This document shows positions 603 through 38,464 of a DNA stretch of 38,464 bases, piece after piece (within the stretch, counting starts at the first letter, position 1; every line of letters starts with the position of its first letter). The notes under the pieces are model-generated. The model was not told where the DNA came from. It ran no database searches and worked only from the letters and a program-made list of their open reading frames with translations. The position numbers were made by a program, and so were the translations under genes. Origin of the DNA: a virus; IMG/VR virus record IMGVR_UViG_3300042691_018210, positions 1-38,464 of that record; one strand, 5' to 3'.

Positions 603-1511
603 ATGCTACTAAATGACGATCAAAACTTCCACGTACACCACGGCGACTGCATACCTCACATGCTCGATGTTATGCCAGAATCGAGCGTGGATTTCGCGGT
701 ATTCAGTCCTCCTTTTCCCGCTCTCTATGCCTATTCAGATGCCGTTGGTGATATCGGCAACGTCGACACAATGGGCGATGAGGCCAAGGTACATCTATCG
801 TTTTTCTTCAATGGACTGTATCGTGTACTCAAACCTGGACGAGCGGCAATTGTGCACGTTATGCAGATTCCACGAATGAAGCGTAGCGGCGGCGTTGGGC
901 TCTGCGATTTTCGCGGGCTCAATATTCGCGTTGCCGAGCGTGCTGGATTAGTATACGAGTACGACTGGAGCGTGAGGAAGAACCCGCAGGCACAAGCGAT
1001 CCGCACACGAAGCCGTGAATTGCAATTTGCTGGACTTGAAAACGACCGAGCGGCACAACGGGGAACGCTTCAAGATTACCTCATCAAGTTACGTAAGCCC
1101 GGTGAAAACGCAGTCAAGATCGACAGCGAAAATCAAGTGAGCCGCAATGACTGGATTGCGTGGGCTGAAGGGTGTTGGGATGATATTCAAGAGACAGACA
1201 CGCTCAATACCGCAGCCGCCAAAAGCGATGACGATACGCGGCATATTTGCCCACTGCAACTTGAAGTGATTCGGCGTTGCGTGCTGCTTTACACCAATCC
1301 AGGTGAAATTGTATTCAGCCCGTTCACTGGAATCGGTAGTGAAGGTTATGTATCGCTCGGCGGTAAGTCACCAAAGACAGGGCGAAGCATTGCAGACACA
1401 CGCCGATTCTATGGTTGTGAACTGAAGCCGGAATACCACAAGCAAGCCCTGAAGAACTTAAATAAGGCGGTTGAGCAATCCCAGTCGACGAAAGAGGCTC
1501 TCTTGTTTTAA
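603..1511 (+). CDS. site-specific DNA methyltransferase (beta class, N4-cytosine or N6-adenine)
   Basis: This is a 302-residue protein with the permuted motif order of beta-class DNA amino-methyltransferases. The catalytic motif IV, SPPF, lies at residues 35-38 (DFAVFSPPF) and the SAM-binding motif I (FSPFTGIGSE) is near residues 238-247, followed by RRFYGCELKPEY, which resembles motif X/II ends of this class. SPP[YFW] is more typical of N4-cytosine enzymes, DPP[YFW] of N6-adenine enzymes, so N4-cytosine is favoured but not proven. ATG at 603 follows the helicase stop by one base, so the two are probably co-translated. No cognate restriction enzyme is adjacent; protection of phage DNA from host restriction is the likely role. 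Confidence 0.85.
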   Translation: MLLNDDQNFHVHHGDCIPHMLDVMPESSVDFAVFSPPFPALYAYSDAVGDIGNVDTMGDEAKVHLSFFFNGLYRVLKPGRAAIVHVMQIPRMKRSGGVGLCDFRGLNIRVAERAGLVYEYDWSVRKNPQAQAIRTRSRELQFAGLENDRAAQRGTLQDYLIKLRKPGENAVKIDSENQVSRNDWIAWAEGCWDDIQETDTLNTAAAKSDDDTRHICPLQLEVIRRCVLLYTNPGEIVFSPFTGIGSEGYVSLGGKSPKTGRSIADTRRFYGCELKPEYHKQALKNLNKAVEQSQSTKEALLF

Positions 1512-1514
1512 CAA

Positions 1515-1571
1515 ATACCACCCAGAATTTGTTACAGCTTACCGCCCGTCGCAACGGCGTGGTGGTGTTTT
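1515..1571 (+). terminator. terminator-like hairpin after the methyltransferase gene
   Basis: ATACCACC at 1515-1522 can pair with GGTGGTGT at 1561-1568 (8 bp, one G-U), with a small inner hairpin CCGT-CGCA-ACGG, followed by four T at 1568-1571. The site lies between the methyltransferase stop and the next promoter, where an operon end is expected. The outer loop is long and the T-run short, so it may be weak. Confidence 0.45.
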
Positions 1572-1610
1572 GGCGGATTGACGGCGGGTGAAATGCCGAA
1601 TCGCGGTAAT

Positions 1611-1638
1611 TTGACGAAAAATAGAATTTTGCTATAAT
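1611..1638 (+). promoter_or_regulatory. sigma70-type promoter of the three-Cys cassette
   Basis: TTGACG at 1611-1616 and TATAAT at 1633-1638 are 16 bp apart, close to the bacterial housekeeping consensus. Transcription would start near 1645, immediately before the structured RNA and about 100 bases before the TcmP-like gene. Confidence 0.8.
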
Positions 1639-1644
1639 ACACGT

Positions 1645-1745
1645 AACATTGGTTGACCGCCGGTGTAACCGAACAATAGCCCATTCCGTTTGTGTCTTTG
1701 TGCTCTCGCACTATCGGCGGTCAAAACAAACGGAGTGGGCTTTTT
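1645..1745 (+). ncRNA. structured RNA 1: interlocked A-B-A'-B' leader or small RNA
   Basis: The sequence has two long, perfectly placed complementary pairs that interleave. A is TTGACCGCCG (1653-1662) with A' CGGCGGTCAA (1715-1724), 10 of 10 pairs. B is AGCCCATTCCGTTT (1678-1691) with B' AAACGGAGTGGGCT (1728-1741), 14 pairs with one G-U, followed by five T (1741-1745), so B-B' alone looks like an intrinsic terminator. Between B and A' is a small hairpin GTGC-TCTC-GCAC (1700-1711). A-A' and B-B' use different bases, so they could form together as a pseudoknot. RNA 2 at 4459-4564 has the same plan with different stem sequences. It has its own promoter upstream and the TcmP-like start at 1748 downstream, so it could be an attenuating leader or a terminated small RNA of about 100 nt. 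Confidence 0.7.
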
Positions 1746-1747
1746 CT

Positions 1748-2587
1748 ATGAGGCTATTGACCGTGAGTAAGAGCGATTTAGTGGGACGATCCCACAGAAC
1801 TCCAATTAAGCATTTTTTGCTTAATGCCATTGTTGGTAAAGTAATTGGCGTACTTGGGGTACAGTCCCCAAAGGTTCCATGCAAGGCTAATCCATTTTAT
1901 TGTGTCGATCTTTGCGGTGGCGACGGATTTGAGCCTGAAGATGGTAGCCACGAGGCATCGCCAAAGATTCTATTCAAGCACTGCAATTATCTACGTAGTA
2001 ACTACGGAAAGGAGTCGTTTCTTGATGTTATTGAAAAGCATCCGTTTGCATTTGCGGAACTACAAAAGAACTGCGAAGTAGAGCAGCGGCACAGCTGGTT
2101 TAAGTTAGTCAACGGTGATGCTCGTGAGTTTACGCTGCCAAAACTGAAAGAGAACCAAGCGGCGTTTGTTCATTGTGACCCTAACGCGGTTAGCCAAATG
2201 CCACTAACAAAGCAACTTGTATCATCATGGAATGCGTACACGATGTATCTTGTCACGCTTGGGTGTAATGCACAAGGCGTTAAGCGCAATATGTCACGCG
2301 AAGATCGTGAGCAATGGTTTATGTACACGGAATCATTGTGTGCTTTCCTGCCTAGAAATCACGACGCGGTACTGTTTTGGTTGCAACGCGACGATCACCA
2401 ATGGGCATACTTACTAAGCCTACCAAAAGTTTGGCGAGATGATTTTGTGAAGATGGCGATCAACAACACGGTCAAGCATTGGCCGAAGGGGATTGGATCA
2501 ATTTCGTATCGCAGCGATCCAAATGGCTTTGAGCGAGAAGTTCGTCGGTTATTCCTAACAAGTGCGGAGCTGCAAAATGGTCAATGA
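1748..2587 (+). CDS. TcmP-like protein (three-Cys-motif partner, SAM-methyltransferase-like fold)
   Basis: This 279-residue protein has a Rossmann methyltransferase-like arrangement: a glycine-rich strand-turn FYCVDLCGGDG (residues 50-60), VNGDAREF (121-128) and FVHCDPNA (140-147). The order and the neighbour, a CX3CX2C DUF5131 protein, match the family annotated as three-Cys-motif partner TcmP, whose biochemical role is not established. The frame is open further upstream to a TTG at 1649, but that stretch translates the structured RNA and is probably not coding. ATG at 1748 has GGAG at 1732-1735. The gene overlaps the next one by 11 bases. Assignment to TcmP is from pattern recognition; a more distant methyltransferase is the alternative. 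Confidence 0.65.
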   Translation: MRLLTVSKSDLVGRSHRTPIKHFLLNAIVGKVIGVLGVQSPKVPCKANPFYCVDLCGGDGFEPEDGSHEASPKILFKHCNYLRSNYGKESFLDVIEKHPFAFAELQKNCEVEQRHSWFKLVNGDAREFTLPKLKENQAAFVHCDPNAVSQMPLTKQLVSSWNAYTMYLVTLGCNAQGVKRNMSREDREQWFMYTESLCAFLPRNHDAVLFWLQRDDHQWAYLLSLPKVWRDDFVKMAINNTVKHWPKGIGSISYRSDPNGFEREVRRLFLTSAELQNGQ

Positions 2588-3998
2588 GACACTAGAAGAT
2601 ATTATTAAGCACTACCCAGAAATCACTGGCATTCATCCTGCTTGTACTGCCGTTCCCGCTATTGAAAAGGAAGACCAGGACGCATTGGAAAAAGACATAG
2701 CGAACAATGGACTTCTCGATGCTGTAACGCTTACGCAGGATGGATTGCTACTTGACGGACGCAACCGACTGATTGCGTGCCATAAGGCAGCCGTTGAAGT
2801 GCGATTTACTAAATTCGGTGGCGACCCGTGGGAGTATGCCTACGCCAAGAATATCGCTCGTCGTCATTTACCGATGGCGGCAAAGTGTGCGTTTGGTGAA
2901 GCGTGGGCTGATGACGAAAAGACAAAAGCCAAAGCACGGCAAGCAGAAAACGCAAAACGCAATCAACCTCAGAACGTGGAAATGTTTCCACCTTTAGAGA
3001 ACACTGGTAAGTCTCGTGATGCCATTGCCGAGCGTATCGGCGTGAGCGGTCGAACGTATGAGAAATACGAACAAGCGAAACTGCACGCACCGCCCGAAAT
3101 TATCGACAAGATGCGTCGCAATGAGATTAGTATTGACGCAGCCTACAAAGAAGCTAGAAAGGTCAAGGATCAAAAAGAGTCTTTGCCGATTGAGCAACCA
3201 AAGCAGAAATCTACGGATCACCAAACGCTAATTATCACAGCCAGCGGCAAGGAGTCGTTTATTGCGTTGCCTCAAAAGGTTGTATTTAATCAGACAAATG
3301 ACTCTGTTGATTGGGCGTCATGGACTTGGAATCCCGTTACAGGCTGTGAGCATGGGTGCAGATTTTGCTACGCACGCGAAATTGCAAACAGCGAGCGAAT
3401 GGCTCCATATTATCCAAACAAGTTTGAGCCAACATTCCATCCCTATCGACTAAGTGCACCAAAAAACACAAGTAAGCCAAAAAGCGATGACACTCGTGAT
3501 GGGCGTGTATTTGTGTGCTCGATGGCCGATTTGTTTGGTAAGTGGGTGCCAAACGCTTGGATTGAATCGGTATTTAAGGCGTGCTTAGATTCGCCTGAAT
3601 GGGAATATTTGTTTCTTACAAAATGGCCCGCTCGATACTCTAAGATGCCGCTGATTAAGAAGGCTTGGTACGGTGCAAGTATTATTCAGCAAAGCGACGT
3701 TAAACGTGTTGAATCAGATATGGCAAAGATTGATTCAGGTGATGTTATCAAATGGATAAGTCTTGAGCCAATGCTAGGTCCAATTAAATTTGAGGACATA
3801 AGTTGGTGCAACCTCGTAGTGATCGGGGCTCAAACCTCCACAAATCAGCCGGATGGATTTGTACCGTCATTCTCGCCACACTACGATTGGGTGCATGATA
3901 TTGTGGAGCAATGCCGAGAGTTTTGCGTTCCTTACTACTTAAAAGAGAACCTGCTTTCAAATCCAGGTATGACTCTTCCGAAGCAATCTCCAAAATGA
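2577..3998 (+). CDS. ParB/Srx domain fused to DUF5131 (phage Gp37/Gp68) radical-SAM-like protein
   Basis: This is a 473-residue two-domain protein. Residues about 18-110 form a ParB/sulfiredoxin-type domain with the signature DGRNRLIACHKA (60-71) and a following ARRHLPM segment; residues 146-195 contain a KorB/ParB-like HTH (RDAIAERIGVSGRTYEKYEQA). After a linker, residues 243-460 match DUF5131: WTWNPVTGCEHGCRFCYARE with C257, C261 and C264 in the CX3CX2C pattern of radical SAM 4Fe-4S clusters, then VFVCSMADLFG, YLFLTKWP and WISLEPMLGPI. ATG at 2577 is preceded by CGGAG (2565-2569). Neighbours are a TcmP-like protein and an HNH protein. The chemistry is unknown; nucleic-acid modification is my inference from the DNA-binding and radical-SAM parts. 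Confidence 0.8.
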   Translation: MVNETLEDIIKHYPEITGIHPACTAVPAIEKEDQDALEKDIANNGLLDAVTLTQDGLLLDGRNRLIACHKAAVEVRFTKFGGDPWEYAYAKNIARRHLPMAAKCAFGEAWADDEKTKAKARQAENAKRNQPQNVEMFPPLENTGKSRDAIAERIGVSGRTYEKYEQAKLHAPPEIIDKMRRNEISIDAAYKEARKVKDQKESLPIEQPKQKSTDHQTLIITASGKESFIALPQKVVFNQTNDSVDWASWTWNPVTGCEHGCRFCYAREIANSERMAPYYPNKFEPTFHPYRLSAPKNTSKPKSDDTRDGRVFVCSMADLFGKWVPNAWIESVFKACLDSPEWEYLFLTKWPARYSKMPLIKKAWYGASIIQQSDVKRVESDMAKIDSGDVIKWISLEPMLGPIKFEDISWCNLVVIGAQTSTNQPDGFVPSFSPHYDWVHDIVEQCREFCVPYYLKENLLSNPGMTLPKQSPK

Positions 3999-4309
3999 AA
4001 TACAGCACGTATGCCGAATATTTAGTATTACCGGAATACAGAGCAGTCTGTCGTATTGTCGCGGAGCGATCACAGGGCTTGTGTGAGTTTTGCGGCGATA
4101 CGGCAGACGATTTTCATCACGTGAAGTATTGTAAATGGGGCAAAGTTGATACACCTGATAACCTACTGCACGTATGCCGTGAGTGTCACGAAAATGAGCA
4201 TACATGCCACGGGTGCGGCGGCTACCTAAAAGCTGAAGCGATAAAAAAGCGATCAAAGTTTTGCCGACAATGCCGAGACAATGGACTAGATAAGGCAGTA
4301 TCAAATTGA
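3995..4309 (+). CDS. HNH-type zinc protein, putative endonuclease
   Basis: This 104-residue protein contains CEFCG (C30, C33), HH at 41-42, DNLLHVCRECHENEH (55-69) with N56, C61, C64, H65 and H69, then two more CxxC pairs (71/74 and 90/93). The Cys-His-His-Asn-CxxCH order is that of the HNH/McrA-like nuclease fold, in which two CxxC pairs hold zinc. ATG at 3995 overlaps the stop of the ParB-DUF5131 gene (ATGA), implying coupled translation and a functional link. It may nick or cut DNA, or act as a zinc-binding partner without nuclease activity. Extra CxxC pairs at the C-terminus are a second zinc ribbon. Confidence 0.7.
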   Translation: MKYSTYAEYLVLPEYRAVCRIVAERSQGLCEFCGDTADDFHHVKYCKWGKVDTPDNLLHVCRECHENEHTCHGCGGYLKAEAIKKRSKFCRQCRDNGLDKAVSN

Positions 4310-4404
4310 AAGCATCTACCCCCGAACTACTCAAATTCCAGAAGCTCATGCGTCGCTTAAAAGAAACTCGGCGTGGCGTCATTGGCAGATTTACGGCGGA
4401 GTGA
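4306..4404 (+). pseudogene. short ORF, possibly a gene remnant
   Basis: A TTG at 4306 overlaps the HNH stop (TTGA) and opens a 32-codon frame whose product includes ELLKFQKLMRRLKETRRGV. The pattern KFxxLxRRL...RxxVxG is reminiscent of the start of larger phage replication-associated proteins, but the frame stops after 32 residues just before the next promoter. It could be a decayed gene or a genuine small peptide; no strong ribosome binding site is visible. Confidence 0.3.
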
Positions 4405-4423
4405 AACGCGGATTGTGAGTAAC

Positions 4424-4452
4424 TTGACGACCTCTTGACAACTTGTTATAAT
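4424..4452 (+). promoter_or_regulatory. sigma70-type promoter of the replication operon
   Basis: TTGACG (4424-4429) and TATAAT (4447-4452) are separated by exactly 17 bp, a near-consensus promoter. A second TTGACA lies inside the spacer at 4435-4440. Transcription is expected to begin near 4459, just before structured RNA 2. Confidence 0.85.
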
Positions 4453-4458
4453 CGTGCT

Positions 4459-4564
4459 AAGTCGATGTGGAAGTCGGCAAAAAGAACACAATACACGCCC
4501 CAACTAGTGCACTCTTTGCGTACTCACGCACCGACTTCCACACGCACTGGTTGGGGTGTTTTTT
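4459..4564 (+). ncRNA. structured RNA 2: same interlocked architecture as RNA 1
   Basis: A is TGTGGAAGTCGG (4466-4477) with A' CCGACTTCCACA (4531-4542), 12 of 12 pairs. B is 4495-4510 (core GCCCCAACTAGTGC) with B' 4544-4559 (GCACTGGTTGGGGTGT), 16 pairs of which two are G-U, followed by six T (4559-4564). The central hairpin between B and A' is TGCGT-ACTC-ACGCA (4517-4530). Order, spacing and the central hairpin match RNA 1 at 1645-1745, while the stem sequences differ, as expected of a conserved structure. The GIY-YIG start codon follows at 4580. Leader-type attenuation or a free small RNA are both possible. Confidence 0.7.
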
Positions 4565-4579
4565 GTAAGGTGTTCAGGG

Positions 4580-5014
4580 ATGGAAATTGACGACGATCCG
4601 TTTTTAAGTCGTGAAGAACTAGAACAGAAGGCGGCATTATTTCTCAAGGCGTACAACTGGCTTGAGCATCCAGTTGAAAGGATGAGAGCAGCGTTTAGTT
4701 TATTTGATATTGATTTTTCAATAGAAACAAATCCGCTGTTTTTGCCTAGCGAGCCAGGGGTTTATGTGTTCTACAGCGAAGATGATCTGCTTTATGTCGG
4801 CAAATCCAAAAATCTGAAGGCACGCTGTTCAAGGCACGATAAACCATGCACGGATCACATTGGGTTTGGCGTGTGCGTAGAGCGATTGATTTCACTTCGA
4901 GAGGTCCAGTTGATTTCGGTATTGCGTCCACTTTGGAATTGCGAATCAAAAGACGCGACTGACGTTGGCTTTTTCAGTCAGCCAACCAAATCAATTAAAT
5001 GGAGTTATGAGTAA
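4580..5014 (+). CDS. GIY-YIG nuclease-domain protein
   Basis: In this 144-residue protein the GIY-YIG domain occupies about residues 57-122: GVY (60-62), LYVGKSKNLKAR (71-82, the YIG strand and catalytic arginine R82), E108 in LREVQLISVLRP, and N120 in the C-terminal strand. All key residues of the fold are present, so a single-strand nicking or structure-specific nuclease is plausible. About 55 residues precede the domain with no recognised motif. ATG at 4580 follows a purine-rich CAGGG; the frame upstream runs into the RNA terminator T-run and is not used here. It leads the replication operon, so a role in DNA processing rather than a selfish homing enzyme is possible, but either could hold. 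Confidence 0.75.
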   Translation: MEIDDDPFLSREELEQKAALFLKAYNWLEHPVERMRAAFSLFDIDFSIETNPLFLPSEPGVYVFYSEDDLLYVGKSKNLKARCSRHDKPCTDHIGFGVCVERLISLREVQLISVLRPLWNCESKDATDVGFFSQPTKSIKWSYE

Positions 5015-5811
5015 TGCCACGAATACGAACAATCAAGCCTGAGTTTTGGCGTAACAGACAACTTGCAGAGTTACCTGAATTCACTCGCCTAGTTGCAATT
5101 GCATTACTAAACATCGCGGACGATGAAGGGTATTTTGAGGCCGACGCAATGCTAATTCGCGGTGATGTTTTTCCGTACCTGGAAGACTACCGTAGTATTA
5201 CCGTAGCACTACGGGAGTTATCTAGTATTGATTATGTGTGCCTACGAACCACCCACGAGAAGGGTGTAATTGGCGTGATCCCGGCCTTCAAGAAGCACCA
5301 AGTCATAAACAAACCAGCAAAGAGCAAATTGAAGGAAATATACGACAAAACATTGGATATTCCTGCATTACATGAAGACTCCCGTAGTCCTACCGTCGTG
5401 CTACCGGACGACTCCCTGCTGGAACAGGGAACAGGGAACAGGGAAAAGGAAGTGGAAAAGGAAAAGGAAGCACCCCCTGAGTCCCCCAAGGGGGAAACTA
5501 TTGTTGAAAAACAAAAGCGAACCTCTGAGCCAGGATACGACGCTGGTACATACCGATTCAGTGGCCACCTAGACACCCCAGAAGTGCACGACGCATTCCA
5601 GCGGTACGTAGCGATGCGAAAGGCGAAGGGCAAGCGAGATAGGGCAACACTTGGAGCCTGCGAGCAGATTGAGCGTGATTTCCAGGATTACTCAGCGGCG
5701 GATTTGGTTGCGGCATTGGGCCGGTCAATTGTTTCGTCGTGGAATGGAGTTTTTAAGCCTGACAAGAGCACGAAGCGGCCTCCGCCAAGAGAGGGCGAAT
5801 TTGTTTTCTGA
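5014..5811 (+). CDS. phage replisome organiser / replication initiation protein-like
   Basis: The 265-residue protein begins MPRIRTIKPEFWRNRQLAEL and contains RLVAIALLNIADDEGYFEAD followed by a winged-helix-like segment (SITVALRELSSIDYVCL). This opening is the hallmark of phage replisome organiser proteins (DnaD/O-like). Residues about 140-175 form a highly charged linker rich in E, K and P, and the C-terminal 90 residues (FQRYVAMRKAKGKRDRATLG) form a helical domain. The start overlaps the previous stop (TAATG). The likely role is binding of the phage origin and recruiting the helicase with help of the next gene. An origin was not identified, though origins often lie inside such genes; the low-complexity AAGGAAAAGG-type run at about 5440-5470 would be a place to look. 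Confidence 0.7.
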   Translation: MPRIRTIKPEFWRNRQLAELPEFTRLVAIALLNIADDEGYFEADAMLIRGDVFPYLEDYRSITVALRELSSIDYVCLRTTHEKGVIGVIPAFKKHQVINKPAKSKLKEIYDKTLDIPALHEDSRSPTVVLPDDSLLEQGTGNREKEVEKEKEAPPESPKGETIVEKQKRTSEPGYDAGTYRFSGHLDTPEVHDAFQRYVAMRKAKGKRDRATLGACEQIERDFQDYSAADLVAALGRSIVSSWNGVFKPDKSTKRPPPREGEFVF

Positions 5812-9223: not shown

Positions 9224-11330
9224 GAAAAAGACTCACGAACTGCCGCCAGCAGAGTTGGATAAACTTCGTGCCCGTGACGCAGAGCGTAAACGTAAGCAGC
9301 GAAATCTAACCAAGGAAATCGCTCCGCTTCCGGCGTGTGCCGATCCAAAACTTCGTGAGAAACTATCTACCGATCTTGAAGCGTTTTTACTCATTTGCTT
9401 TCCAACTGCGTTTCCGCTTCCATTTTCGCCCGCCCATAGGATTCTCATCACGCGATTGCAAGACGTTTTCACTCGTGGTGGCTTGCAGGCTATCGCGATG
9501 CCTCGTGGATTTGGCAAGACAACTATCGTGTTGCGTGCCGCACTTTGGGCGGTACTTTACGGCCATCAGCCTTACGTGGCACTTCTTGGGGCTAACGCTA
9601 CCGCAGCGGATGAGTTACTCGATACGATCCGAACGCTACTCGAAACAAACGAAACGCTGTTGGCACTCTTCCCAGAGGTGTGCTATCCGATACGATGTCT
9701 TGAAGGCGAAACCAAAAAAGCAATAGGGCAGACTCTCAATGGCGAACGAACTCGAATCGGTTATAAAGGCAAGCGAATTATTCTCCCTACCGTACCAGGG
9801 AGTAAATCAAGCGGAAGCATCATCCAAGCAGGTGGCTTATTATCTCGCTTACGGGGATTTCAATTCACCAGAGAAGATGGAGTGGTTCTTCGTCCCACAT
9901 GCGTTATTCCCGACGATCCACAGACAGATTCATCTGCTGCAAGCGATAAACAGTCCGACAAGCGATGGCGTGTGATGATGGGTGCGGTGCTTGGGCTTGC
10001 TGGTCCCGGTGTCCGCATTTGCGGTGTCTGCCCCTGTACGGTGATTCGATACGGCGATATGTCGTGGCGTTTACTCCAAAGGCAGTTATCGCCTGAATGG
10101 CAAGGGACCGTAACAAAGCTCGTCGTGAAGTGGTCAAAAGAGCAAGAATTAATCGATGAATACGCCGAGTTGCGTAAATCAGATTTGATGCTTGGCGACG
10201 ACAACATCACTCGTGCAACTGCGTTTTGGCGTAAACATCAAAAGACCATCGAAGCCGATACCGATGTCACATGGAAAGAGCGATTTGAGCCTTATGAAGT
10301 ATCTGCGTTGCAACACGCCTACAACCTAAAGTTTCGCAATCCGCTGACGTTCGATGCAGAATACCAAAGCGATCCACAAGAGGGCATCGATCTATCAACT
10401 GGGGTTTACGCTGCATCGAGTGATTCTATCGCCATTCGTGCTAGCGGGTACGAGCGTGGTGTTGTACCGAAAGAATGCGTGCATCTCGTGGCAGGTGTCG
10501 ACGTGCAGCGTACGGTGCTTTACTGGACGGTGCTTGCTGTCGCTCCAGGATTTACTTCTTATGTGGTTGATTACGGCGTATGGCCTGAACAAGGTAAGAT
10601 TTACTTTGGCTTATCCGAAGCCGATAGGACGATTCAGCACGAAACCGGCGTGAGTAGTTTATCCGCATCGATTCTCGCAGGCCTACGGCGTTTTGAGTCG
10701 TTTATGCTATCGCGTGAGTATGTACGCGATGACGGCACACCCATGAACTTGGAGCGTATCGTTCTCGATGCCAACGACGGCCCGCTAACCGATACCATCT
10801 ACAGTTTTGTCCGTCAGACTCAACAGCGTGCAATTTGGCTCCCGTGGCATGGCATGGGAATTACAGCCAGCAAAAAGCCAATGAACCAATGGCCGGTTAA
10901 GCAAGGTGAAATCATTGGCGACAATTGGCGTATTAATCCAACGCAGGCCCAGAACCAAAGACCCCGCCATATTGTGGCTGACTCCAACCACTGGAAAACA
11001 TTTGCCCATGCAAGGTTGCGTCAACCGGATGGCGAGCCCGGTGCGTTGATGTTATTCAAGGCAAGCCCGGCTCAACATCGTATGTATGCCGATCACATTG
11101 CAGCCTGGACACCTATCGAGACGACCGGACAAGGACGCAAGCTCGTGGAATGGAAACTTAATACCGGGGCTGAGGATCACTACGGTGATTCGCTCGTGAT
11201 GGCGTGTGTGGCTGGTTCCGTTGTCGGTGGTCGACTGCGTGAGCACGAAATCCGGCAAGCGGTGAAGCCGGAACGCAAGACGCTCGCTCAAATGCGTGAT
11301 GAGGCCAAAAAGCGACGAAAGGGCAATTGA
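9216..11330 (+). CDS. terminase large subunit, GpA (lambda) type
   Basis: The protein has 704 residues from ATG 9216 (an in-frame TTG at 9210 is six bases upstream). The ATPase domain has Walker A PRGFGKTT (96-103) and a Walker B-like PTCVIPDDPQT (227-237). The nuclease domain starts around residue 420 with HLVAGVDVQRTVLYWTVLAV, the GpA-type strand bearing the first catalytic aspartate. The C-terminal HYGDSLVMACVAG matches the end of this family. The enzyme drives DNA into the prohead and makes the genome ends. A GpA-type enzyme suggests cos-site packaging, although the circular contig could also come from permuted DNA. Confidence 0.92.
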   Translation: MAKKKTHELPPAELDKLRARDAERKRKQRNLTKEIAPLPACADPKLREKLSTDLEAFLLICFPTAFPLPFSPAHRILITRLQDVFTRGGLQAIAMPRGFGKTTIVLRAALWAVLYGHQPYVALLGANATAADELLDTIRTLLETNETLLALFPEVCYPIRCLEGETKKAIGQTLNGERTRIGYKGKRIILPTVPGSKSSGSIIQAGGLLSRLRGFQFTREDGVVLRPTCVIPDDPQTDSSAASDKQSDKRWRVMMGAVLGLAGPGVRICGVCPCTVIRYGDMSWRLLQRQLSPEWQGTVTKLVVKWSKEQELIDEYAELRKSDLMLGDDNITRATAFWRKHQKTIEADTDVTWKERFEPYEVSALQHAYNLKFRNPLTFDAEYQSDPQEGIDLSTGVYAASSDSIAIRASGYERGVVPKECVHLVAGVDVQRTVLYWTVLAVAPGFTSYVVDYGVWPEQGKIYFGLSEADRTIQHETGVSSLSASILAGLRRFESFMLSREYVRDDGTPMNLERIVLDANDGPLTDTIYSFVRQTQQRAIWLPWHGMGITASKKPMNQWPVKQGEIIGDNWRINPTQAQNQRPRHIVADSNHWKTFAHARLRQPDGEPGALMLFKASPAQHRMYADHIAAWTPIETTGQGRKLVEWKLNTGAEDHYGDSLVMACVAGSVVGGRLREHEIRQAVKPERKTLAQMRDEAKKRRKGN

Positions 11331-11354
11331 CGGCATTGACTTGCGTGATACAAT
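11327..11354 (+). promoter_or_regulatory. promoter overlapping the end of the terminase gene
   Basis: TTGACG (11327-11332) and TACAAT (11349-11354) are 16 bp apart. As in the promoter at 4424, a second TTGAC element lies in the spacer (11336-11340). The TGA of the first hexamer is the terminase stop codon. It would drive transcription of the leader at 11361-11483 and perhaps the head genes. Confidence 0.6.
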
Positions 11355-11360
11355 CACAAG

Positions 11361-11483
11361 AATCCATTGCGGAATATCTTTCTCTTTTTGCAGTGGGGAA
11401 ACGTATTTAAGGGGCATAGGTCGTTGGCGCGGCCTCCCTACAATCTAAAGCATCCAGGCGTTGTAAACCTGGGTGCTTTTTTT
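11361..11483 (+). ncRNA. possible untranslated RNA between terminase and head genes
   Basis: The segment between a promoter and a strong terminator holds three possible hairpins: CCATTGC pairing with GCAGTGG (about 11364-11396), AGGTCG (11418-11423) with CGGCCT (11430-11435), and the terminator at 11447-11483. It has no open frame of note. It does not show the interlocked A-B-A'-B' plan of RNAs 1 and 2. Transcripts from the upstream promoter would be about 120 nt if terminated. Confidence 0.4.
11447..11483 (+). terminator. intrinsic terminator
   Basis: AGCATCCAGG (11449-11458) pairs with CCTGGGTGCT (11468-11477), 10 pairs with one U-G, extendable by two A-T pairs; the loop is nine bases and seven T follow (11477-11483). 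This is the clearest classical terminator in the window and separates terminase transcription from the head operon. Confidence 0.85.
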
Positions 11484-11519: not shown

Positions 11520-11549
11520 TAGGGTTGCACGTTTAGGAGGTGCAATCCT

Positions 11550-11771
11550 ATGCCTAATGCCGATGGCTCTTTAACGCCCGCCGAAATTGCTGAAGCGGCC
11601 CAAAAGCCCTCTAACGTCTCTGTGGACGGCACGTCTGCAACTCGTGCGTCTACTTCTGAACTCATCGATGCGGATCGTCACCGAGCGGCTAACGCTGCAT
11701 TTCAAAGCCCATTTCGTGGCATGGTGTTTGCAAAAATTCGCAAAGGCTCCGCAGTCAACGAGAACTCCTAA
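11550..11771 (+). CDS. small head protein in the gpW position
   Basis: This 73-residue protein starts MPNADGSLTPAEIAEAAQKP and continues DGTSATRASTSELIDADRHR. It lies between the large terminase and the portal, where lambda encodes gpW, and the DGxSxTRxSxxELI pattern recurs in short phage proteins at that place. A strong TAGGAGG site precedes the ATG. A head completion or connector role is inferred mostly from position. Confidence 0.55.
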   Translation: MPNADGSLTPAEIAEAAQKPSNVSVDGTSATRASTSELIDADRHRAANAAFQSPFRGMVFAKIRKGSAVNENS

Positions 11772-37423: not shown

Positions 37424-37644
37424 TGAAAGACGAAAACACAGAACCGGCGTTTCCGGTAATTAACAGCGATCATATGCCAGAGTATCGGGGCATGACGCTC
37501 TGCGATTGGTTTGCGGGGCAGGTACTAGCTGGGCTATGGCCAACAATAATGATTGACCGGAAGTATCTAGACGACGACGCATATGAGTGTGCTATTGCGG
37601 CGTACAAGATTGCGGATGCAATGATGGAGGCACGGAAGAAGTGA
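37423..37644 (+). CDS. phage-common small protein (MTLxDWFAxQ family)
   Basis: The 73-residue protein contains YRGMTLCDWFAGQVLAGLW and AIAAYKIADAMMEARKK. This MTLRDYFAxxAL...AYxxADAMLxAR pattern occurs in a very widespread family of small phage early proteins of unknown function. ATG 37423 is preceded by GGGAGG. It ends in GTGA with the helicase start. Confidence 0.7.
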   Translation: MKDENTEPAFPVINSDHMPEYRGMTLCDWFAGQVLAGLWPTIMIDRKYLDDDAYECAIAAYKIADAMMEARKK

Positions 37645-38464
37645 AGATAGATTTTAACTACAAATCGACCGCAGATTACGAGACGTTTCTTAACGTCCGT
37701 AAATGCCCCGTATATCGTTTTCGCGGTGCGTTTGCTCATATCCCTGATGAGTACGCAGCACTGCTCGGTCGTGTATCGGCTCCGCTCGTGGCCGATTACC
37801 AGCCCATGCCGTCGATGTTTGATTATCAACGCGATATCACGAAGATTGCACTTGCCAAGCGTAAGTACGCCATTTTTGCGGACTGTGGACTCGGTAAGAC
37901 AATGATGCTGCTCGATTACGCCAAGCACGCGGCATTTGCGACCGGCGGCAAGGTGTTAATTGTGTGCCCACTTATGGTGGTTAAACAGACGACCGAAGAG
38001 GCAGCGAAGTGGTTTCCTGAAATCGGCATTAAGCAAATCAAAGCGGCTGAACTGGAACAATGGCTCGTAAGCGGTCAAGGTATCGGAATCACGAACTATG
38101 AAGCAATTCGTGAGGATTTACCACAGGGCACGCTTGCGGGGCTCGTGCTGGATGAGTCATCGATGCTCAAGAGCCATTACGGTGCATGGGGAACGCGGCT
38201 CATCGAGCTAGGGCGTGGTGTGCCATATAAGCTATGCCTGACGGGTACGCCAGCTCCTAATGACCGGATCGAGTACGCCAATCATGCAGTATTCTTGGAT
38301 CGATGCAAAACGGTCAATGAGTTCCTGGCAACGTACTTTATCAATCGCGGCGAGACATCGAACCGATGGGAACTGAAACCTCACGCTTTGAAGTCGTTTT
38401 ATCGGAACCTTGCTGACTGGTCGATATTCTTGACCAATCCGGCAACCTACGGATGGAAGGATAA
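37641..38464 (+). CDS. SNF2-family DNA helicase, N-terminal part (3' end cut by window)
   Basis: GTG at 37641 overlaps the previous stop (GTGA) and the frame is open to the window end. Residues 60-66 (FDYQRDI) form the Q-motif region; Walker A is DCGLGKT (81-87); LIVCPLMVV is motif Ia; LVLDESSMLK (168-177) is the Walker B region with DESS in place of DEAH; LTGTPAPN (200-207) is motif III. The remaining segment ends NPATYGWKD. The reading frame continues at base 2 of the window, so this and 2-601 are one gene in a circular molecule. Confidence 0.85.
   Translation, partial: MKIDFNYKSTADYETFLNVRKCPVYRFRGAFAHIPDEYAALLGRVSAPLVADYQPMPSMFDYQRDITKIALAKRKYAIFADCGLGKTMMLLDYAKHAAFATGGKVLIVCPLMVVKQTTEEAAKWFPEIGIKQIKAAELEQWLVSGQGIGITNYEAIREDLPQGTLAGLVLDESSMLKSHYGAWGTRLIELGRGVPYKLCLTGTPAPNDRIEYANHAVFLDRCKTVNEFLATYFINRGETSNRWELKPHALKSFYRNLADWSIFLTNPATYGWKD

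Follow-up and report, generated by a model that had tools for sequence, protein, structure and literature searches.

A family of phage leader RNAs with crossed stems, proposed as transcription attenuators of replication-initiator operons

We describe a structured leader RNA of uncultured phages, found mostly ahead of replication genes, and consider, with a probability of about 45%, that it attenuates transcription at the 5' end of phage early operons, most of which encode replication initiators. The window (the whole stretch of DNA analysed, a virus record of 38,464 bases) carries two copies, RNA1 (1646-1746) and RNA2 (4461-4565), each behind a sigma70-type promoter and each with two crossed stems, A/A' and B/B', in the element order A, B, a small hairpin (P2), A', 1 nt, B' and a T-run (Table 1). 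The RNA family defined here is one without an Rfam model.

Two leaders in one genome

A sequence-only reading of RNA2 had described stems of 12/12 (A/A') and 16 pairs (B/B') that differ from those of RNA1, with the same order, T-run and central hairpin in both copies. Re-pairing and folding reproduced these stem lengths and positions and both central hairpins. Watson-Crick pairs make up 11/13 of A/A' and 15/16 of B/B' in RNA1, and 12/12 and 14/16 in RNA2, where the gap between A' and B' is again 1 nt. Across the half of the window that was scanned, the two promoters are the best sites, and both have an extended TG. Crossed stems followed by a T-run rise above background in the window at RNA1 and RNA2 only, and dinucleotide-shuffled sequence gave none at the same stringency. 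A promoter at 11327 with a terminator at 11447-11479 was considered as a third copy and rejected, as it has no crossed stem; here (11327-11479) the terminase gene ends in a promoter-like site, a strong terminator hairpin follows ~100 nt on, and the region may encode a small RNA. Just beyond it, immediately 5' of an ATG, a hairpin at 11520-11550 holds an AGGAG ribosome site in the loop.

In nested folding of the full-length RNAs, B:B' is part of the minimum (z -4.1 to -6.6 versus shuffles for RNA1 and RNA2), and when the transcript ends at A', A:A' is in the minimum fold of both. The copies do not cross-pair (A1:A'2 -3.7 and A2:A'1 -6.8 kcal/mol, compared with about -21 for own partners). The changes between the copies had been called compensatory, which is loose, because their arms are not alignable as homologues and do not cross-pair; among relatives, two-sided changes do occur. 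The own A:A' and own B:B' duplexes also beat 100,000 partner permutations, a result that is supportive and not independent, because the segments were chosen as complementary.

Three features had been overlooked in the sequence-only reading: the hairpin P0 at the 5' end, with A inside it, the replication initiators in the downstream operons, and a block of ~62 bp common to both copies upstream of the promoters (local alignment score 45, no shuffle above 25). This block suggests either a duplication or a common DNA-binding regulator, so that common control at the DNA level and by an RNA-binding factor are equally likely; it is not conserved in L140, a relative ~90% identical to the window. In L140, moreover, the window's right end (37612-38464) runs on into its left end (1-601) across 48 bases, and the record is therefore a permuted or circular genome with a helicase gene split over its ends.

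Table 1 Features of the two leaders and the adjoining genes in the window
Feature	Position	Strand	Basis or remark
Block upstream of promoter 1	1555..1617	+	Resembles 4369-4430, local alignment score 45
Promoter 1, TTGACG-16-TATAAT	1611..1638	+	11/12 consensus, TG ahead of -10
RNA1 P0, 5'-end hairpin containing A, loop UUGACC/UGACC	1646..1666	+	Fold; P0 in all members examined
RNA1 A, putative antiterminator strand (P0 loop + P0 3' strand)	1653..1665	+	13 pairs with 1712-1724
RNA1 B, putative terminator 5' arm	1678..1693	+	16 pairs with 1726-1741
RNA1 P2, central hairpin GTGC-TCTC-GCAC	1700..1711	+	Fold; stem covariation in relatives
RNA1 A', partner of A, 1 nt 5' of B'	1712..1724	+	Pairing
RNA1 B' and U-run, putative terminator 3' arm	1726..1746	+	Fold, pairing; B' 1726-1741, T-run 1741-1745
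First gene behind RNA1	1748..2587	+	Alternative start 1763
Block upstream of promoter 2	4369..4430	+	Resembles 1555-1617
Promoter 2, TTGACG-17-TATAAT	4424..4452	+	11/12 consensus
RNA2 P0, GUCGAU-GUGGAA-GUCGGC, loop = 5' part of A	4461..4478	+	Fold, loop pairing
RNA2 A	4466..4477	+	12 Watson-Crick pairs with 4531-4542
RNA2 B	4495..4510	+	16 pairs with 4544-4559
RNA2 P2, central hairpin TGCGT-ACTC-ACGCA	4517..4530	+	Fold
RNA2 A'	4531..4542	+	Pairing with A
RNA2 B' and U-run	4544..4564	+	B' 4544-4559, T-run 4559-4564
First gene behind RNA2, GIY-YIG nuclease-like	4580..5014	+	Pfam GIY-YIG, 1.2e-05
Second gene behind RNA2, replication initiation protein	5014..5811	+	phrog_1408, 2.1e-27

Relatives and covariation

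Relatives were first retrieved with the ParB/DUF5131 protein behind RNA1, and further scans were run with the helicase, with the replication initiator and with an alignment built on the protein behind RNA1. The first descriptor asked for crossed stems and a T-run; it recovered both window copies, L002/L003, L005, L007 (two copies) and L010 with scores of 64-69, and one further match (L027, 47.5); shuffled sequence gave zero at that stringency. Inspection of the sequence 5' of the homologous gene contributed L004, L006, L009, L012, L015, L016, L020, L123 and L126, and the L187, L190, L197, L238 and L264 types came from loci of the helicase and the initiator. A second descriptor, which required UR in the P0 loop, an A' of 7 nt or more lying 0-3 nt ahead of B', and a B hairpin, matched 28 distinct sequences in ~3.1 Mb of related viral contigs, 24 of which belong to the family (scores 49.5-72), and shuffles gave two weak matches (48 and 45). 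Members share a B:B' hairpin, an A' 0-3 nt ahead of B' and a P0 loop that can pair with this A'. The descriptor matches L091, L046, L169 and L027, and separately L042, L285 and L292, were set aside as chance, being weak and without the shared context, and pattern scans with the P2 motif gave mostly chance matches, with L167, L170 and L140 as exceptions.

Beyond these contigs little was recovered. Against Rfam 15, the window has no match at gathering score, including to riboswitch families, and 1500-4800 has none at E up to 5. Searches of cultured phages found no relatives, either with the DNA (except for a 56-base match in the DUF5131 gene) or with the protein behind RNA1, and one further search returned two distant plasmid proteins. 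The GIY-YIG query and single-sequence queries of the protein behind RNA1 yielded zero loci, and a one-genome-per-species scan yielded a single contig, without a leader.

The stems covary among these relatives. Sister comparisons gave seven two-sided changes and no broken pairs for the P0 loop with A' (A:A'), 28 and four for B, and seven and one for P2. When seven close relatives were aligned, 97.3% of cells were paired (82.0 when shuffled, at most 48.4 when slid), 17 pairs had changed on both sides and covariation was 0.521 versus 0.213, with the structure derived from those same sequences; these counts are limited to the close set, because MAFFT misaligns the arms of distant members. Covariation among homologues was the check that the sequence-only reading had named for its claim of selection on RNA structure, and the claim held. 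In L140, RNA1 differs by one change in 96 nt, located in the P2 loop. These data strongly support selection on RNA structure.

What is common to all members examined is the pairing of the P0 loop with A'. Each opens with P0, whose 6-8 nt loop and 3' strand together make up A. The sequences checked agree on three points in 18/18 cases: the loop, with up to two of its 5' bases excluded, pairs with A' at the 3' end of that strand; the gap from A' to B' is 0-2 nt; and the second and third loop letters are U and a purine, which would be U-turn-like. In antisense RNAs, U-turn loops start contacts (PMC7430163). P0 is more stable than shuffles when 11 members are combined (Stouffer z -5.5), with individually modest values, and it shows no two-sided changes in sister comparisons.

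Operons behind the leaders

P0 starts 3-9 nt after the -10 element in 14/16 leaders examined, the structure is ~85-100 nt long, and the first start codon follows B' by 6-27 nt, with the ribosome site outside both stems in most members. Wherever checked, the operon behind the leader encodes a replication initiator or primosomal protein; the exceptions are the helicase-methylase leaders (the operon behind the first copy of L007 is helicase-methylase) and two distant types. Besides these, three arrangements were seen. First, a gene of the RNA1 type and ParB/DUF5131 precede an initiator or primosomal protein in L002, L004, L005, L009 and L010. Second, initiators of several families lie directly behind the leader in L187, L190, L238, L254 and L264, those of L187 and L264 being relatives of the phrog_1408 initiator. 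Third, RNA2 of the window is followed by the GIY-YIG gene and then the initiator. In L126, a primase-helicase is encoded further downstream.

The first gene behind RNA1 has no match in Pfam or PHROGs, and relatives of its protein stand behind many other leaders. At 2562-3998 lies a fusion of a ParB-like domain and DUF5131 that carries a radical-SAM-like CX3CX2C motif (CEHGCRFC); the conserved protein beside it lacks a Pfam or PHROGs match and has relatives in many of these phages. A palindrome-like, operator-like sequence, AGGCATATGCCT, lies upstream of the -10 element in several U-poor leaders, namely L004 (~5043-5060), L006, L238, L254 and L167.

L167 and L254 have upstream sequence and first gene in common and differ in their arms, and the L167 arms stand in front of another gene in L004/L006; the arms therefore move as modules. 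Two arm sets occur per genome and are swapped between phages, and such naturally orthogonal sets would be of use as orthogonal RNA regulators.

Possible modes of action and known systems

As an attenuator, the leader would work by order of synthesis. P0 would fold first, at the start of its own transcript, and as A' emerged the P0 loop would pair with it and the pairing would spread to A:A' (7-13 bp), enclosing B in a closed loop before B' is made. Located 0-2 nt behind A' and tethered to RNA polymerase, B' could not wind onto B; with B:B' blocked, the terminator would fail and the operon would be read (ON). Were A kept off A' by a stable P0, an occupied loop or altered timing, B:B' and the U-run would terminate transcription at ~100 nt (OFF). 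We infer termination at B:B', the mutual exclusion of A:A' and B:B', the ON/OFF direction and the signal. A:A' and B:B' have no nucleotides in common, and exclusion would thus rest on topology and spacing, which lie beyond the folding tools used. In nested predictions for most members, A:A' together with P2 becomes the best fold as soon as A' has been transcribed (a few, e.g., L016 and L123, are exceptions), and P0+B:B'+P2 is the best fold in nearly all full-length leaders, which is the order that a kinetic switch needs.

A rather unlikely alternative is that the leader is its own antisense RNA. The terminated ~100-nt leader would be a putative trans-acting small RNA whose exposed A' captures the P0 loop of a new transcript that has yet to produce its own A', causing termination there too, and the arms would define specificity groups, like plasmid incompatibility or heteroimmunity. 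The U-turn-like P0 loops, of a type used in RNA-RNA recognition, fit this proposal, as does the failure of the two copies of one genome to cross-pair. So does the wholesale replacement of arms with the architecture kept: L004 and L167 have the same upstream sequence as L238 and L254 but different arms. Replication operons are, in addition, the classic target of such control (pT181/pIP501, PMC5703833; P4 CI RNA, PMC4825925). At the same modest odds, the leader would be a protein-free, self-targeting RNA switch that holds both the antiterminator loop and its complement and, once terminated, silences matching transcripts in trans. If true, the arms would be interchangeable specificity types, and the leader could provide copy-number control or RNA-based superinfection immunity with no counter-transcribed RNA.

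Weak U-runs in one sub-group (L004, L006, L167, L238, L240, L247 and L254) count against it, and against the attenuator too, of which they are the main weakness. In that group B' is followed by 1-3 consecutive T and termination is doubtful, although the terminators ahead of these leaders seem poor in U as well; L009/L010 have 4 T. The same sub-group keeps both stems despite wholesale arm replacement, which would suit a post-transcriptional role. A structured 5' UTR that protects the mRNA 5' end or governs ribosome access, with an incidental T-run, would also suit the position of P0 at the extreme 5' end and of the B' end close to the start codon. We nonetheless regard it as unlikely, as a U-run of 5-7 T directly behind B', as an intrinsic terminator needs, is found in most distinct sequences, and the ribosome site is mostly outside the stems.

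The sequence-only reading had proposed a shared trans-acting factor for the two operons, and a phage or host protein could bind P2 and thereby choose between A:A' and B:B' at both. P2 stems covary and most P2 loops contain TC (ATTC, ATCT, ACTC, TCTC), which makes such a factor possible. L015 and L264 lack P2 and the P2 of L012 differs (an unrelated GAAA loop), which speaks against a shared one. TCTTTG, described ahead of the hairpin in both window copies, is indeed there and in L004, L006, L009 and L010, and is restricted to one sub-group (TCTTCG in L002). We hold a P2-binding protein to be quite improbable. A riboswitch with an overlapping terminator would keep ligand-binding nucleotides in its loops or junctions; the letters that recur across members are U-purine in the P0 loop and, in the loops of P2, TC, the helices vary freely, and no Rfam riboswitch matched.

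In phage HK022, two leader RNAs, putL and putR, follow early promoters and act on RNA polymerase, with no terminator included. The window leaders, compared with put by description only, are likewise two copies behind two early promoters, with structure adjoining the transcription start, and could in principle act in cis so that polymerase ignores later terminators. This is very improbable, as the helix sequences change freely, unexpected for an RNA that contacts polymerase, and each leader carries its own terminator. Chance inverted repeats have practically no standing, being refuted by the homologues through covariation, conservation and shuffles.

Several known RNAs resemble the proposed attenuator in part. 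From the portion of the literature consulted on IsrK of Gifsy-1, short and long (messenger) forms arise from one prophage leader promoter, no crossed stems were seen and the context differs (PMC4825925). The c4 antisense RNA of phages P1/P7 (RF01695) is also leader-derived and varies its target loops while the scaffold stays constant (PMC5320573). It consists of three stem-loops and undergoes RNase P processing, and the window RNAs have no RF01695 match. In phage P4, the CI RNA (seqA/seqC) links RNA-RNA pairing in a replication-operon leader to premature termination (PMC4825925); there, a processed RNA acts on two distant targets, while here a single leader of ~100 nt holds both strands and a terminator of its own.

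The attenuators of pT181 repC and pIP501 repR likewise carry the antiterminator strand and a recognition loop in a 5' hairpin (PMC5703833, PMC4878617), and have two alternative folds, and an intrinsic terminator just before the replication gene, with the U-run weak in one sub-group here. They differ in two respects. Their pre-emptor pairs with the terminator's 5' arm, whereas here A pairs with A' inside the terminator loop and not with B. Their signal is a counter-transcribed antisense RNA, whereas a scan of 16 members with the sigma70 consensus found no opposite-strand promoter better than in shuffles, and a countertranscript model is not supported. By analogy, the leader would work like the pT181 attenuator yet fail two of its defining features. 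Any exclusion between its antiterminator and terminator, which share no bases, is by topology and timing, and if they do exclude each other, the leader would be a simple test bed for co-transcriptional folding.
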